Origin: Methanohalophilus portucalensis | GTDB taxonomy: Archaea > Halobacteriota > Methanosarcinia > Methanosarcinales > Methanosarcinaceae | Length of the DNA: 64,000 nucleotides | Assembly (NCBI RefSeq): GCF_002761295.1 | Contig: NZ_CP017881.1 | Coordinates: 681,087-745,086, forward strand | Direction: 5' to 3' | Shown here: positions 40,938 through 47,338 of the stretch, piece by piece | Layout of the letters: every line of letters begins with the position of its first letter | Position numbering within the stretch: the first letter of the stretch is position 1 | Program-made: the position numbers and the translations under genes | Notes under the pieces: generated by a model | Told to the model about the DNA's origin: nothing | The model's input: only the letters and a program-made list of their open reading frames with translations | Database searches by the model: none

Positions 40938-40986
40938 TGTTACCCAACTGGGTTACACATGTTATTCTAAAACTTTTTTTTATATA
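40938..40986 (+). promoter_or_regulatory. Promoter of the DUF2162-ExbB-DUF2149 genes with palindromic element
   Basis: A near-perfect inverted repeat, TGTTACCCA at 40938-40946 and TGGGTTACA at 40949-40957 (2-nt centre, one mismatch), lies about 22 bp before a TATA-like box (TTTATATAC, about 40979-40987). Position upstream of the box suits an activator or a metal-responsive regulator. The rest of the 324-bp gap 40796-41119 holds the nmd3 promoter (AT-rich, about 40880-40900) and, nearer the gene, a GGTGG ribosome-site-like sequence at 41105-41109; I see nothing else. Confidence 0.5.
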
Positions 40987-41119
40987 CTATGGACATACTG
41001 AAGATAGCAAGTGTATTTGATTTGTAAACCGGTCAGATGGATTAATTATTGGGTTGTACACGGTATAATAGGAACTTGGAGTAAGTTTCATTTGTCCGAA
41101 TAATGGTGGTTGTATATCA

Positions 41120-41797
41120 ATGAGTGCAGTATATTTAACGGTCATAGGAATTCTGCTGGCAATAGCTGTGTTTGCAGTTAAGGCCGGAGTGGGATGTGGA
41201 TGCTCGACTATCGATCGCAGACAGCTGTTAACAATTGCAGGGATGTATTTTGTCTTATCAGTAATTATAGGTGTAATTCTCAATTACATCGATATATCCT
41301 ACCTGCTGAATGCTTCCCAGCTTGGGATGGGCCTGCATGTGGTAATGGCTCTCTTGCTTTTGGGAGTGGGAATATACACATCCAAAAAATGGAATTGCGG
41401 AGTGGATGTATCCCATAAGACTTTCCTTGTGATCTCCCTGCCCTGTCCGGTATGCCTTGCAGCCCTTTTTATGTCGATTATGCTGCTTTCCAATACCGTT
41501 GAGATCAGCAGTGCGCTTCTGGGACTTGGAGTTGGTGTCATCTTTTTTGTTTCTATCATTTCCTCTTCCCTGGTTGTCAGGAGGCTTAAAAAGGACCCAA
41601 CAACCTTGGGCAATGCCATGACTTTCCTGGGTCTGTTCTACCTGATGGGTGCAATAATTGCCCCTGCCTACATGCACGCAAAACAAATGGGCCTTCCGAC
41701 TTTCAGCGGCCCTGAATTTGACATCATACCCTTCATCGGCTTTGCAATTCTCATATCTGCCGGCTTTGCACTTAATCGCATCAAAACCCAGCATTAA
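41120..41797 (+). CDS. DUF2162 membrane protein (candidate transporter)
   Basis: The 225 residues have about six membrane spans and two cysteine motifs, VGCGCSTI near the first span and LPCPVCLAALF in the middle, which could carry metal or redox chemistry. The family is annotated only as a predicted transporter. It is first of the ExbB-like and DUF2149 genes and the CobN-like gene on the same strand, the order seen as a set in bacterial and archaeal genomes as far as I recall. Metal or metallo-tetrapyrrole transport is an inference from that company. Confidence 0.8.
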   Translation: MSAVYLTVIGILLAIAVFAVKAGVGCGCSTIDRRQLLTIAGMYFVLSVIIGVILNYIDISYLLNASQLGMGLHVVMALLLLGVGIYTSKKWNCGVDVSHKTFLVISLPCPVCLAALFMSIMLLSNTVEISSALLGLGVGVIFFVSIISSSLVVRRLKKDPTTLGNAMTFLGLFYLMGAIIAPAYMHAKQMGLPTFSGPEFDIIPFIGFAILISAGFALNRIKTQH

Positions 41798-41818
41798 TTT
41801 AAGGAGTGATAATAAAAA

Positions 41819-42442
41819 ATGGCAATAGATTCTTCTTTATTCCAGATAATGTATACAGTTTCTTCTTCACTATTGTATCCTGTTATCATACTGCTTTTGT
41901 TAGCAGTGGTATCATCTCTGGCCTTGATCGGTGAGTTCATTTCCGAATATTCCAAGAGGCATCGCAATGTCACCCAGCTTGAGGATGTGGGGAAAAGGGT
42001 GCAGGATTCCGTGAAATCTTCTGATTTCAATTCTGCTGCTTCACATCTGGGAGAACTCAAGCAAAACTCCCTTGTGATGTCATTTGCCCGCGACGCTGCT
42101 GCCCATCTTGGCAGCAGTGCTGCCACATCTATCGACTGGCTTTCCGAGGAGTATGAAGTCAGGATGACCAAGAACCTGGAGTATACCAAGATCCTTTCCA
42201 CGGTTGCCCCAATGATAGGCCTGATGGGAACCCTTATTCCCCTTGGTCCGGCTTTGATCGGACTCGCAGAAGGTAACATCCTGCAGCTGGCGCATAACCT
42301 GATGGTGGCTTTTGCAACAACAGTACTCGGTCTGTTTGCCGGAATAGTCGGGTATGTCCTGACGCTTGTGCGTAAAAGATGGTACTGGCAGGATATGGCT
42401 GATATCAATTATCTGCTTGAGTGTATGGAGGGTGAGGAATGA
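41819..42442 (+). CDS. MotA/TolQ/ExbB-family proton channel protein
   Basis: Proton-conducting subunit that couples the proton motive force to mechanical work on a partner. The 207 residues have three membrane spans: VIILLLLAVVSSLALIGEFI at the start, then a cytoplasmic helical region, STVAPMIGLMGTLIPLGPAL (the ExbB/TolQ signature, cf. AP.IGL.GTV) and FATTVLGLFAGIVGYVLTL. The start follows AAGGAGTGAT. Its stop overlaps the DUF2149 start (ATGA), coupling the two. Archaea have no outer membrane, so the work output must be at the cell surface. Confidence 0.9.
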   Translation: MAIDSSLFQIMYTVSSSLLYPVIILLLLAVVSSLALIGEFISEYSKRHRNVTQLEDVGKRVQDSVKSSDFNSAASHLGELKQNSLVMSFARDAAAHLGSSAATSIDWLSEEYEVRMTKNLEYTKILSTVAPMIGLMGTLIPLGPALIGLAEGNILQLAHNLMVAFATTVLGLFAGIVGYVLTLVRKRWYWQDMADINYLLECMEGEE

Positions 42443-42801
42443 GGAAGCAAAAGAAATACAGGCGAAGCGGCCTGCTTTATGAAGGAGATGAACAGAACCC
42501 CTTAACAGGCGTGGCCAACCTTTTCGACATAGCCATGGTCTTCTCCGTAGCTCTGCTTGTGGCCTTGGTAATGTCCTTCCAACTGCCGGAATTGTTGTCT
42601 CCCACGGATGATGTGACCATTGTAAAGAATCCTGGTGAGGAAAACATGAAGATTATCGTCAAGGAAGGTCAGGACATTGAAGTATTGAACATGACCGAAC
42701 AGATTGGAGGCGGGTCAGGTGAGGCGCTGGGTACGGCCTACCAGCTGGCAGATGGACGGGTGGTTTATGTGCCCGAGGGTAAAAACGAATCGGGAGGATA
42801 A
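42439..42801 (+). CDS. DUF2149 protein, ExbD/TolR-like partner
   Basis: The 120 residues have a short positively charged N-terminus (RKQKKYRRS), a single membrane span and an external C-terminal domain. Just at the start of the span is NLFDIAMVFSVALLVAL, where the Asp corresponds in position to the proton-carrying Asp of ExbD, TolR and MotB. This, with translational coupling to the ExbB-like gene, makes it very probably the second stator subunit. The external part (about 45-120) has no recognised domain. A T-rich tract follows its stop (42805-42819), which may end the upstream transcript. Confidence 0.82.
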   Translation: MRKQKKYRRSGLLYEGDEQNPLTGVANLFDIAMVFSVALLVALVMSFQLPELLSPTDDVTIVKNPGEENMKIIVKEGQDIEVLNMTEQIGGGSGEALGTAYQLADGRVVYVPEGKNESGG

Positions 42802-42819
42802 CCCATTTTATTTTTTTTG

Positions 42820-42935
42820 TTATATAAAAACAAGTTGATCGATTATATGTAAAGGGGAATTGTGGATAAATTTAAGTTGAAAATATTGTGGTGACATCCC
42901 GACCTGTCGGCTGGCGGGCTCTAGGGTCGGGATGT
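42820..42935 (+). promoter_or_regulatory. CobN-like gene promoter and strong leader hairpin
   Basis: A TATA-like box (TTATATAAAA, 42820-42829) lies 130 bp before the CobN start codon, so this gene can be transcribed separately from the three upstream. In the predicted leader, ACATCCCGACC (42894-42904) and GGTCGGGATGT (42925-42935) form a perfect 11-bp stem with a 20-nt loop that is GC-rich and unlike the AT-rich surroundings. It ends about 25 nt before the start codon and ribosome site (GAGGCGAT), close enough to affect translation. No known riboswitch is recognised. Confidence 0.55.
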
Positions 42936-42959
42936 GCTGCATACTATCGAGGCGATAAT

Positions 42960-45900
42960 ATGCGATTTGGAAAAGTGTGTTTATTAGTTTTAAGTGTATT
43001 GATTATGCTGGCAGTGGCAGTGCCGGCGGTATCGGCAGAGGAACAGGTTAACGTAACCTTGATCACTTATAATGATGGGGAAGTAATCAATTATGCAAAA
43101 GATGCAAATCCTTATAATGACAGTATAAATGTGACTTATCATTCTACTATGTTCAATCTTTCTGAAATAGATCTGAGTAATCAGGATGTCATATTTACCT
43201 ATATGTTGTGGTCCAGTAAGTACGAAGAATTTTCTGATGAATTGGAGAAAGCCAAATCAAACGGCTCTATTCTGATCGATATAACAAGTTATGTAAATAC
43301 GTCTATCTATGATCATACTTTTACAGGAAGTGAGCCATACCAGAGCAAGGATGAGAAATATTTCTTCAATATGGGTATGCAGGAAGAATTCCTAAAAGAA
43401 AATACTGAAAATTTCCTTGTATATTTGGCCAAGAACTATAGTACTAAAACAGGTCTTACAGCCAGCTGGGTATATGAAGACCCAATTCTCCTCCCTGAAG
43501 GTATTTATCACCCAGATTCAGACGAAGATGTATATTGGTTCGATAATTCCAGTGAATACATAACCTGGTACCAGAATAGTTCCAATGGCGATCACTTTGT
43601 ATACAATTATTCAAAACCGACAATTGGGATCTGGTTCCATAAAGAGGATTATAAAGCCGGCAATATGGAGATAGTGGATGCTCTGATATCTGATCTGGAA
43701 AGTAAGGATTGCAATGTTATTGCAGGATTCGATACATTTCTTAACATCTCTGAATACTATTGTTATGAAAACGGAACGCCTCTGGTAGATTGTATGATCT
43801 CCCTGAAGAGTTTTGGGCTTGATGTCAGTAAATATGAAGGATACGGTCAGGAAGAGTTGACGAATCTCAATGTTCCGGTATTGAAAGGAATGGTAGCTGA
43901 TGCGTCTTCCGGTGACCCGGCCGATGCCAATCGGGGTATTTCCAACCAAGAAGCCACACGTAAGACTGTCCTCCCAAATATCGATGGAATATTTGAATAT
44001 ATAGTACTTGGGGAACAAAAACAGATATCCTGGGGAGTTTACGAATATGAGCCGAATCCTGACCAGATTGACTGGATGGTAAACCGTACCATAAAATGGG
44101 CCGACCTTAAACGAAATGAAAATCAGGATAAGAAAGTTGCTCTTATATATTACAACTATCCTCCAGGCAAGGACAGTATCGGTGCCAGCTACTTGGATTC
44201 CATGTCAAGTATAGTGAATCTTCTTGAAAAAATGAATGAAAGTGAATATAATTTAACCTATGTACCGGAAAATACCACTACTTTGTTGGATAGGGTTCAA
44301 AAACAGGGTATAAATGTTGGTTCATGGGCACCGGGTGAGCTGGATGAGATGGTAGAAAACCGCACGGAATGGGGAGTCCATCTTATACCCGTGGAAACCT
44401 ACAGGGAATGGTTCAGTGAGGAAATCCCGGAGGATCTGCGCAATTGTGTAATTGAAGAATGGGGAGAACCTTGGTCAGAGGATTTCTCTGAAGACCAGAA
44501 ATTGATGATATGGGAAAATGAATCTGGGCGATACATTGTTATTCCTGCCGTGCAGTGTGGAAATACATGGCTGATGCCCCAGCCTGCGCGGGGTATGACA
44601 CAGAATGATAATGTGTTATATCACAGTACCCTTGTACCCCCGCCACACCAGTACATAGCTTTCTATCTGTGGTTGAATGATGAATGGGATGCCGATGCAG
44701 TCATCCATATGGGCACACACGGGACGCATGAATGGCTTCCGGGTCTTGCCTACGGGATGAACAGGACATCTGACTGGGCTCCATTATTGTTACAGGACTT
44801 ACCCAACATCTACCCCTATATCGTGGCTAATGTTGGAGAGGGATTGACTGCGGAATATAGAGGAAATGCCTTGATTATCGACCATCTAACCCCTACATTG
44901 GAGAGAGGTGGTCTTCATGCGGAGATGGCAGATCTTTCAGGTAATATTCAGACTTATTATGATCCGGGAATGGCGGATGATGTGAGGGATGAGTACAGGA
45001 AAATAATTATTGACCAGATGGTGGATCTTAATTTAGATGAGGACCTGACTATCAATGAAAGCACACTGGAAAACTATCGTAATAATGACCCTCTGTTTCA
45101 GGCATTTGTGAAAAATGTGCTTCATGAGTATCTGGAAGAAATCTCTGAGGAAAACATACCCTATGGTTTCCATGTTCTTGGTGAAGTACCACCTACGAAT
45201 TTAACGGGTCCGAAAAATGACCAGCTTTCGGCAATGGTCCGAGCGATGCTGGGTAGCCGTTTCCAGAACAATGTTTCTGCTGCGTTTTACCAGAATGAGA
45301 CGGTATACCCGATGGGAATTCCCTTGAACGATACGAAGATAGATCGGCTGGTGTGGGAAGTCATAACCAATAATACGGATTGTGTTATAGCACAGGATAG
45401 AGTTTACAGTTCCAACAATTCATCTATAACTGCCGATTTGGGTAGGGGGATCGAATACAGGGATGATCTGCTTGATTCGGATGTTGAACTTGATAAAGTA
45501 ATATCTGCCCTTGGTGCAGGTTTCATATCACCGGGCCCGGGAAGGGATCCGATACAGAATCCAGATTCTGTACCTACAGGACGCAATTTCTATGGTGTGG
45601 ATTCCAGGCTTTATCCTTCACCGGCCACATGGGAGCTGGGATCAAGGCTTGCTCAGAATATGCTTGAAGATTACTATGACAAACATGGGGAATACCCTGA
45701 AAAGGTTTCTTTCTCTAGGTTTGGAGTTGAGTTCATAAGGGATCACGGGACGCTTGAGGCTGAGGTCCTTTATTTACTGGGTGTAAAACCTGTATGGGAC
45801 GAAACGTCCAAACAGGTGATTGGCCTTTCCCTGTTGAACGAATCCGAATTGCTACCAAATTATGATCCGTCTAAACCTGGCAGGCCACGTATAGATATTG

Positions 45901-47276
45901 TGTATACAACAGCAGGTATGCGTGATGCCTTCCCGGACAAGATCAAGATGATCGATGAGGCGGTGAGGCTGGCAAATGAAGCACCAGAAGGTAATTACAC
46001 TAATTATGTCAATCAAAGTACCCAGGAAGTTCGACAGGCATTGATAGATGCAGGGTACGATAAAGAAACTGCTTCGAAGCTCTCGACTATGCGTTGTTTT
46101 GCTGTACGTGATGGTACCTATGAAATCGGGGTTGCTAATGCCATTGGTGCAAGTGGCACTTGGGATGATGAGGCGGCAATAGCAGACCTCTACCTAAATA
46201 AAATGGGGTATTCTTACGGTACTGATATGTGGGGTTTCCAGAGTTCTGACCTCCTTACCGAAGCCCTGAGGGACGTGGATGCTTCTATTCACTCGGATTC
46301 TTCCAATCTATACGATACGCTGGACAATGATGATTTCTTCCAGTACTTTGGTGGAATGAATCTCGCAACAAGGCATATTTCTGCTAATACTCCCGAGATG
46401 TATGTATCCGATACGCGAAATTCTGCCGAAAGTGGAATGGTGACGATGAAGGAATATCTCAACAAGAACCTCCGTTCAAGGTATTTTAACGATAAATGGA
46501 TAGAGGGAATGAAAGGTTCGGGTTATGCCGGCGGAAAGATGTTTTCTGAGTTCGTGGAAAACCTCTGGGGCTGGGAGGTCTCAAATCCGGAACTCGTTGA
46601 TGACAGTGATTGGGAGACGGTCTATGAACAATTCGTCAACGACCCGGAAATGGAGGAGTGGTTCAAACAGAATAATCCTGATGCATATCAATCTATAACG
46701 GCCAGGATGCTTGAGACTACCAGAAAGGATTACTGGGATCCTTCGGATGAAATGTTCCAAGATTTAATGCGCAATTATGCCGAATCTGTTGTTGAGGATG
46801 GCGTTTCCTGCTGCCACCATACATGTGGCAATCCGATGCTCAACAGCTATGTTGTTGAAGGCTTGATGTCTGTACCAGGTGTTGTTAGTGATGAGACGTT
46901 ATCTGAGTTTGTCAAGAAAATTGAACAAGCAACTCAAAAGAGACTGGAGACATCTTCCTCTGAGGAATCACAAAGTCCCTCCAGCAGCGGCGGTGTAGGC
47001 AGTGCACAGATAGTGAATGCTTCAACCACAGGCACCTCATCTAATCAGACCACCACTACTTCTGATGGCGGCTATGGTGAATCTACGCAGGAACCAACAT
47101 CCGAGTCAGCAGAATCCAGCAGCGATTATGTGGAAGGCTATGAGATGACAAAGGAAAACCCGCGGAAAGATAACTCGGGTGGCTCATCCTTCTCCGGTGC
47201 TGACATTGTGGGAACCATACTGGTGCTTGCAGCTGTGGGTGCCATGTATATCGGTTTCAGAAGGAGACAGATGTAA
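42960..47276 (+). CDS. Surface-anchored CobN-family chelatase-like protein
   Basis: The 1438 residues have a signal peptide (hydrophobic core VCLLVLSVLIMLAVAVPAVSA, cleavage after A26), a region of about 400 residues without clear homology, then a CobN/magnesium-chelatase H core: HMGTHGTHEWLPG, LPNIYPYIVANVGEG, LIIDHLTPTLERGG, GFISPGPGRDPIQNP, PTGRNFYGVDSRLYPSPATW, DNDDFFQYFGG and a final SCCHHTCGNPML. A Ser/Thr-rich stalk (about 1330-1400) leads to a C-terminal membrane helix (TILVLAAVGAMYIGF) ending RRRQM. So the chelatase domain faces outward. Cytoplasmic CobN uses ATP partners, which would not work outside; the ExbB/DUF2149 pair may supply energy instead. Bacteroidete haem-uptake HmuS proteins are CobN-like and similarly placed. 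Confidence 0.87.
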   Translation: MRFGKVCLLVLSVLIMLAVAVPAVSAEEQVNVTLITYNDGEVINYAKDANPYNDSINVTYHSTMFNLSEIDLSNQDVIFTYMLWSSKYEEFSDELEKAKSNGSILIDITSYVNTSIYDHTFTGSEPYQSKDEKYFFNMGMQEEFLKENTENFLVYLAKNYSTKTGLTASWVYEDPILLPEGIYHPDSDEDVYWFDNSSEYITWYQNSSNGDHFVYNYSKPTIGIWFHKEDYKAGNMEIVDALISDLESKDCNVIAGFDTFLNISEYYCYENGTPLVDCMISLKSFGLDVSKYEGYGQEELTNLNVPVLKGMVADASSGDPADANRGISNQEATRKTVLPNIDGIFEYIVLGEQKQISWGVYEYEPNPDQIDWMVNRTIKWADLKRNENQDKKVALIYYNYPPGKDSIGASYLDSMSSIVNLLEKMNESEYNLTYVPENTTTLLDRVQKQGINVGSWAPGELDEMVENRTEWGVHLIPVETYREWFSEEIPEDLRNCVIEEWGEPWSEDFSEDQKLMIWENESGRYIVIPAVQCGNTWLMPQPARGMTQNDNVLYHSTLVPPPHQYIAFYLWLNDEWDADAVIHMGTHGTHEWLPGLAYGMNRTSDWAPLLLQDLPNIYPYIVANVGEGLTAEYRGNALIIDHLTPTLERGGLHAEMADLSGNIQTYYDPGMADDVRDEYRKIIIDQMVDLNLDEDLTINESTLENYRNNDPLFQAFVKNVLHEYLEEISEENIPYGFHVLGEVPPTNLTGPKNDQLSAMVRAMLGSRFQNNVSAAFYQNETVYPMGIPLNDTKIDRLVWEVITNNTDCVIAQDRVYSSNNSSITADLGRGIEYRDDLLDSDVELDKVISALGAGFISPGPGRDPIQNPDSVPTGRNFYGVDSRLYPSPATWELGSRLAQNMLEDYYDKHGEYPEKVSFSRFGVEFIRDHGTLEAEVLYLLGVKPVWDETSKQVIGLSLLNESELLPNYDPSKPGRPRIDIVYTTAGMRDAFPDKIKMIDEAVRLANEAPEGNYTNYVNQSTQEVRQALIDAGYDKETASKLSTMRCFAVRDGTYEIGVANAIGASGTWDDEAAIADLYLNKMGYSYGTDMWGFQSSDLLTEALRDVDASIHSDSSNLYDTLDNDDFFQYFGGMNLATRHISANTPEMYVSDTRNSAESGMVTMKEYLNKNLRSRYFNDKWIEGMKGSGYAGGKMFSEFVENLWGWEVSNPELVDDSDWETVYEQFVNDPEMEEWFKQNNPDAYQSITARMLETTRKDYWDPSDEMFQDLMRNYAESVVEDGVSCCHHTCGNPMLNSYVVEGLMSVPGVVSDETLSEFVKKIEQATQKRLETSSSEESQSPSSSGGVGSAQIVNASTTGTSSNQTTTTSDGGYGESTQEPTSESAESSSDYVEGYEMTKENPRKDNSGGSSFSGADIVGTILVLAAVGAMYIGFRRRQM

Positions 47277-47303
47277 GGAAAAGACGACAAAAAGAGCAGA
47301 TAA

Positions 47304-47338
47304 GGATATCCTTAATCACAGGATATCCATTTATTTTT
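47304..47338 (+). terminator. Hairpin terminator after the CobN-like gene
   Basis: GGATATCC occurs at 47304-47311 and again at 47321-47328; the two copies pair as an 8-bp stem with a 9-nt loop, followed by ATTTATTTTT. It is placed between the CobN-like gene and the convergent asd gene and most simply ends the former. Confidence 0.6.

Follow-up and report, generated by a model that had tools for sequence, protein, structure and literature searches.

A four-gene module in Methanohalophilus portucalensis

We analysed a 64,000-nucleotide stretch of the Methanohalophilus portucalensis genome (contig NZ_CP017881.1, positions 681,087 to 745,086; hereafter, the window), in which four consecutive plus-strand genes encode a DUF2162 membrane protein (T), a channel subunit of the ExbB/TolQ/MotA type (U), a DUF2149 protein (V) and a CobN-like chelatase (S). 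All four open reading frames are intact, and their Pfam matches agree with the gene set named in a preliminary description of this DNA (DUF2162, ExbB-like, DUF2149 and CobN-like). That description began the locus at position 40938, which falls on a palindrome (40939–40956) that is part of a conserved operator. The features are as follows:

40939–40967, plus strand: candidate operator of three half-sites, GTTACCC-AACT-GGGTTAC-ACAT-GTTATTC, with 2 mismatches to the consensus
40978–40987, plus strand: TATA-like element TTTTATATAC directly following the operator, an inferred promoter of the operon (from sequence)
41120–41797, plus strand: T, DUF2162 membrane protein (PF09930, 2.9e-70)
41819–42442, plus strand: U, ExbB/TolQ/MotA-type channel subunit (PF01618 MotA_ExbB, 4.8e-12)
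42439–42801, plus strand: V, DUF2149 protein with one span and an extracytoplasmic tail, a proposed ExbD-like rod (PF09919, 1.7e-35)
42960–47276, plus strand: S, CobN-like chelatase, predicted to face outwards (PF02514 CobN-Mg_chel, 1.3e-301)

The genes for U and V overlap by ATGA (42439–42442), and about 160 bp separate V from S. The preferred start of S is the ATG at 42960, from which the protein opens with a clean signal peptide (a GTG at 42888 is also possible). Hydropathy predicts seven spans in T and three in U; the latter count, together with the PF01618 match, fits an ExbB/TolQ/MotA subunit. V has a single predicted span (residues 28–46), and the Asp noted earlier at its start (Asp-30) proves invariant among homologues, within NLFDxAMVF. 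S is the product of the sole CobN-family gene of the genome and carries 32 N-x-S/T sites. By hydropathy it has a signal-like N-terminal segment (residues 6–24) and a C-terminal span (1415–1433) followed by basic residues; these agree with the outward orientation first proposed, and speak against a cytoplasmic location like that of the CobN of CobNST.

Co-inheritance and conserved gene order

Among 247 Halobacteriota genomes (P values are not corrected for phylogeny), V is found in 78 and U, above the cut-off, in 77, with both present in 76 (Fisher P ~3e-60). A CobN-family gene accompanies V in 76 of its 78 genomes (P ~3e-19). U lies within 1.5 kb of V for 99 of the 110 V matches and within 2.5 kb of T for 71 of the 79 T matches, and three genomes of the window's own family (G120, G217 and G242) lack all four families. 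The order T-U-V-S is kept in Methanohalophilus, Methanococcoides, Methanolobus, Methanosarcina, Methanocalculus, Methanoculleus and anaerobic methanotrophic archaea of group 1 (ANME-1), and many genomes have at least two tandem S genes. The association of DUF2149 with CobN, one of three points by which the preliminary description proposed to test its reading, thus holds as strong co-occurrence and co-localization. Its remark that an Exb-type motor is unusual in such an archaeon does not, given that 79 of the 247 genomes encode Exb-type proteins.

Nothing could be learned from the upstream neighbours in Methanolobus, which are housekeeping genes (among them translation and ribosomal genes), or from those in Methanosarcina (fibrillarin, Nop). 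ExbB/DUF2149 pairs without CobN also occur: in L087, L090, L094 and L106 beside giant CARDB/beta-propeller/beta-helix surface proteins, and in L076 and L100 (Methanolobus) beside an S-layer protein and glycogen-type enzymes.

A candidate operator shared with nickel/cobalt importers

Comparison of the palindrome at 40939–40956 with the regions upstream of T in relatives gave a pattern of three half-sites with the consensus GTTANCC-N4-GGNTAAC-N4-GTTANCC. Its two-half-site form, GTTANCCNNNNGGNTAAC, has a single exact match in the 2.08-Mb, single-contig genome. This match lies upstream of an operon, at a distance of about 100 bp; the operon encodes CbiM, CbiQ and a NikL-like protein together with a PGF-CTERM protein and an ATPase. 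The three-half-site element has 25 sites in 40 genomes, compared with 2 for a reversed control. Eleven of these, in 11 genomes, are upstream of T, six are upstream of a CbiM gene or CbiM-type energy-coupling factor (ECF) operon (in six genomes of four genera, including the window genome, G000:C1:265259) and three lie inside one array of S genes; the remaining five are unassigned, and two of them look like chance. This operator, upstream of T and of a nickel/cobalt ECF importer both here and in relatives, is new; within an incomplete coverage of the literature we found no paper describing it, nor any archaeal CBL-box.

Eight Methanosarcina-like genomes have a divergent gene for an ArsR/SmtB-like regulator next to T, and in another genome (G022) such a gene adjoins the CbiM operon; in most cases the operator lies between. 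The T-flanking and CbiM-flanking copies are 60% identical. The regulator is present in 33 of the 40 genomes, including G217 and G242, which are without TUVS; it is not found in G120. We consider it a candidate binder of the operator. A regulator-sized gene beside the CbiM operon of the window genome (L217:1057–1656) was rejected, being unrelated to the ArsR-type regulator. In one locus (L250; G153:C1:3858000–3877500), several arrayed S genes occur with three operator copies and a truncated T copy of 124 amino acids. Operator-like sites also stand upstream of secreted proteins with a W-x-x-FQKD start (L251 and L252, in G115), which are possible further members of the regulon.

The surroundings of the module point to the same metals. 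The ANME-1 gene run reads T-U-V-S-cbiM-cbiN-cbiQ-cbiO-methyltransferase-tetrapyrrole methylases; two further loci (L086 and L186) have cbiM-N-Q-O and then T-U-V-S, beside probable cbiD and cbiE genes that resemble the cbiE- and cbiD-like genes next to the window genome's own cbiMNQO; and one Methanoculleus has cbiM-cbiN upstream of the module (cbiD, cbiE and cbiN are named here by sequence resemblance and position, with no family search). No iron importer was seen among the annotated recurring neighbours. Because of the shared operator and these ECF and corrin-gene neighbours, cobalt and nickel are favoured: the earlier list of cobalt, iron and nickel narrows to cobalt or nickel, with iron disfavoured.

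The active site of S

The best solved relatives of S are HmuS (3e-128) and the CobN of Mycobacterium (1e-118). In HmuS numbering, S keeps the equivalents of the catalytic His-538 (in HMGTHGTHEW, the H-x-G-x-H-G motif of HmuS) and, by alignment on HmuS, Glu-577. At 1209 and 1212 it has Asp and Gln (LDNDDFFQYFGG), where HmuS has His-1209 and Glu-1212 (LSLDHxxEFMGG). The Asp/Gln pair is common to the window S, the S of the Trichlorobacter lovleyi corrinoid cluster and the ANME-1 S, and the Asp at 1209 also occurs in CobN. The site-1 haem ligands of HmuS, Met-79 and His-254, correspond to a gap and a Ser in S, in a head-domain alignment that is weak. As to the methionine-rich insertion of HmuS, methionine density is at most 8 per 120 residues in S, compared with 30 in Prevotella HmuS and only 10 in the HmuS of B. 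finegoldii. Because of the Asp/Gln pair, and with the site-1 ligands also missing, we did not file S as HmuS; BtuS, as used for CobN-like salvage proteins, is the name that fits best. A tree of 67 sequences (FastTree), in which the deep order is weak and long branches meet, places 44 archaeal surface S proteins in a supported group apart from HmuS, from other bacterial U-V-S proteins and from cytoplasmic-like CobN, with L093, L096 and L125 outside the main archaeal group.

S resembles the class I chelatases CobNST and ChlHID in its CobN core and in an active site of the Asp/Gln, CobN-like type; it differs in that those enzymes are cytoplasmic, are driven by AAA+ proteins and ATP, and insert metal. 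CobS/CobT and ChlI/ChlD partners were not found: PF01078 matches only LonB (by Pfam) and a second protein that is probably MCM (by size and N terminus), with no separate search for CobT. The earlier statement that an AAA partner is absent can therefore be put as the finding of no dedicated chelatase AAA protein.

Archaeal S proteins are not uniform at these sites. Those of L093, L096 and L075 have a second site of the HmuS type with His and Glu (LDHYYEFSGG, FDHVNEFLGG), a possible archaeal haem-type branch. TUV-linked S proteins of L083, L085, L127, L167, L170, L173 and L174 have lost H-x-G-x-H-G and have a second site resembling EHPMVAAYFGG, which suggests non-catalytic paralogues.

A candidate proton channel and a candidate transporter

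The GLMGTL segment of U is invariant and its TTV segment nearly so. In an AlphaFold2 model of V, residues 21–48 form a helix that is confident around the span. V has no Pfam match to ExbD (PF02472) and scores 0.3% in hhalign against one ExbD sequence; the sole stretch aligned in that comparison superposes the Asp residues of the two proteins. The module thus resembles the ExbB–ExbD, TolQ–TolR and MotA–MotB motors in that U belongs to their family and the only span of V has an Asp at its start, but V is a DUF2149 protein, not detectably ExbD, and no TonB, TolA or outer-membrane partner accompanies it. No ExbD match was found in the genome.

In T, Cys-26 and a CPxC motif (residues 109–112) are invariant in 35 archaeal homologues. 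Profile comparison likens T to NicO/DsbD_2-type proteins (hhalign, 87%, E 4e-6); there is no Pfam NicO match, and a model of T (predicted local distance difference test score 79) has no fold match in the PDB at E ≤ 0.001. From its sequence, we propose that T is a metal permease or a thiol relay.

Relatives of the module in bacteria

V matches a Bacteroides DUF2149 protein at 2e-23 (tblastn), beside an annotated MotA/TolQ/ExbB gene, so that homologues of HmuU and HmuV are present, and the arrangement hmuYRSTUV is found in Bacteroides, Prevotella and Aureibacter. As in the Bacteroidota hmu operon with its HmuS (PMC12583661) and the BtuS1/2 systems of B. fragilis (PMC6460266), the archaeal module combines an extracytoplasmic CobN-like protein, an ExbB-like protein and DUF2149 in one operon, and the window S shares with HmuS the His-538 and Glu-577 equivalents. 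It differs in having DUF2162 instead of HmuT, in the absence of a hemophore and a TonB receptor, in lacking Met-79, His-254, His-1209 and Glu-1212, and in a cobalt/nickel rather than an iron context. HmuT was considered as a DUF2162 protein and rejected: it has no DUF2162 match, hhalign gives a probability of 0.5%, and the Bacteroidota HmuT is unrelated by every test made. The kinship with hmu suggested in the preliminary description accordingly extends to S, U and V and not to T.

A tblastn search of plasmids with V gave 11 matching records; in nearly all that were read, the DUF2149 gene is accompanied by cobN and an ExbB-like gene. On a plasmid of T. lovleyi, T-U-V-S stands between TonB receptors, next to the plasmid's own exbB-exbD-tonB and amid corrinoid genes and cbiMNQ. 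This pSZ77 cobN cluster (PMC3403914) shares with the window the gene order, the DNDDFFQY active-site segment and the corrinoid/cobalt neighbourhood; it differs in being bacterial, in its TonB receptors and exbB-exbD-tonB, and in a T without the Cys-26 equivalent. Runella has U-V-S within a hyp cluster, with a weakly NicO-like protein at the position of T, and Azospirillum has S-U-V beside an ATP-binding cassette importer and nikR. In Pseudomonas aeruginosa, PA1922–PA1925 comprises, under Zur control, genes for a TonB receptor, a CobN-like protein, an Exb-type protein and a DUF2149 protein (PMC4542158, PMC9431628); by this published description, it likewise joins the last three in one metal-starvation operon, but it is zinc-regulated, has a TonB receptor and has no DUF2162 named in the papers. 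S-U-V is a shared core that serves several metal contexts, whereas T varies.

HmuS is a proven extracytoplasmic de-chelatase, and published models have HmuU/HmuV serve outer-membrane haem import or inner-membrane transport (PMC12583661, PMC13227078). An EMBO J paper calls the role of the archaeal homologues unclear and complete hmu operons lacking in archaea, and a proteome study of M. barkeri notes two BtuS proteins without the operon (PMC10846266). We found no paper that links ExbB/DUF2149 as a motor to CobN-like proteins, although our coverage of the literature is incomplete.

A proposed proton-driven surface de-chelatase

We favour, with moderate confidence, the view that TUVS is a proton-driven cell-surface de-chelatase module and belongs to a regulon for cobalt (or nickel) starvation. 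As a class I core (CobN/BtuS/HmuS-type) anchored outside, S would bind a chelate from the surroundings, a metal-tetrapyrrole (most likely a corrinoid) or another, hold it between the catalytic His and the Asp/Gln pair and expel the metal. U and V would form an Exb-type proton channel and rod giving S conformational work, in place of the AAA+ ATPase input that cytoplasmic CobN and ChlH receive. T, with its NicO/DsbD-superfamily likeness and invariant cysteines, would carry metal, or electrons, across the membrane, and metal may also enter through co-regulated or adjacent ECF importers (CbiMNQO/NikMLQO type). The gene families, predicted topology, co-inheritance, operator and regulator neighbourhood, and ECF and corrin-gene neighbours are computational results that speak for this view, as do the retained His-538 and Glu-577 and the precedent of HmuS. 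We infer that U and V act on S, that S removes metal rather than inserting or importing it, and that the metal is cobalt rather than nickel. Archaea have no outer membrane, and it is this, together with a genome without an ExbD match, that makes U-V driving S more credible; that no dedicated chelatase AAA protein was found points the same way. The strongest argument for coupling joins the missing outer membrane to the T. lovleyi gene run, which has its own exbB-exbD-tonB, so that U-V there are unlikely to energize TonB.

Several observations weigh against this interpretation. Some TUV-linked S proteins, for example in Methanoculleus, are without the catalytic His, which fits binding rather than catalysis. 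The operator sites upstream of T are partly circular evidence, as the pattern was drawn from some of them; those upstream of CbiM are not circular, but several are orthologous. The co-regulated importer of the window genome is of the NikL type, so that the metal may be nickel, and in M. barkeri the BtuS proteins react to the source of iron and sulfur (PMC10846266). The V model is poor outside the helix and too weak for a fold search, and apart from the aligned LFDIAMV/FIDIMLV segment the profile comparison of V with ExbD gave nothing significant. ExbB/DUF2149 pairs without S adjoin giant surface proteins, so that U-V may drive other or several partners.

There is some chance, although not a large one, that S captures a corrinoid or other metal-tetrapyrrole, that the U-V motor releases its grip and that the intact cofactor is handed on with its metal. 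The TUV-linked S proteins without the catalytic His, the corrinoid-cluster context in T. lovleyi and ANME-1, and the tandem S paralogues, which would suit different ligands, all speak for capture; yet the window S keeps the catalytic His and Glu-577, and the co-regulated transporters are metal-ion ECF importers. An archaeal haem de-chelatase, stripping iron from external haem for iron supply as HmuS does, seems to us unlikely. In its favour, no solved relative is closer than HmuS, hmu operons also contain S, U and V, and the abundance of M. barkeri BtuS proteins is higher on Fe(II)/Cys and on FeS2 than on Fe(II)/HS- (PMC10846266). Met-79, His-254, His-1209 and Glu-1212 of HmuS are nevertheless missing from S, archaeal S proteins group apart from HmuS, and the neighbours and shared operator indicate cobalt/nickel importers, with none for iron among annotated recurring neighbours.

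It is improbable that U-V serves archaea as a general motor at the surface, moving the S-layer or several surface proteins, with S as one client or a bystander: U-V without S does lie beside CARDB/beta-propeller/beta-helix proteins of 1,500–2,300 amino acids and, in Methanolobus, beside an S-layer protein, but T-U-V-S is the commonest arrangement among the loci read, across archaea and bacteria, and genomes of family f1 that lack S also lack U-V. Least of all do we expect that S loads cobalt or nickel into a surface tetrapyrrole. CobNST and ChlHID do insert metal, and the class I reaction is reversible in principle, but we know of no export of metal-free corrins by methanogens. HmuS, moreover, works in the direction of removal (PMC12583661).

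Returning to the de-chelatase interpretation, extracytoplasmic class I chelatases could form one cross-domain class of proton-driven metal strippers (for iron/haem, zinc, cobalt/corrinoid and nickel) in which ExbB/DUF2149 replaces the AAA+ ATPase, a generalization to which we give a little less than an even chance. The work of HmuU-HmuV would then go to HmuS and not to haem import across the outer membrane, and the cobalt/nickel version in archaea would expose this for want of an outer membrane. The module bears on how extracytoplasmic chelatases of the CobN type can function with no ATPase: archaea retain U and V alongside S but lack an outer membrane, a situation that tells the two models of HmuU/HmuV apart and can be put to the test in a methanogen amenable to genetics. 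For organisms that need much cobalt and nickel, the operator and regulator provide a first way into the question of metal specificity.

Further variation among S loci

DUF2149 loci also occur in Planctomycetota and a Poribacteria bin (L177, L184, L188 and L189), and in the tree the S of a Thermoguttaceae member (L188) falls with HmuS. In the window, the stretch encoding the S signal peptide (42928–43036) shares 97% identity with its counterpart in a sister species' S paralogue (L070), whereas the bodies of the two genes differ; from these sequences, S genes seem to be exchanged by recombination behind a conserved T-U-V.

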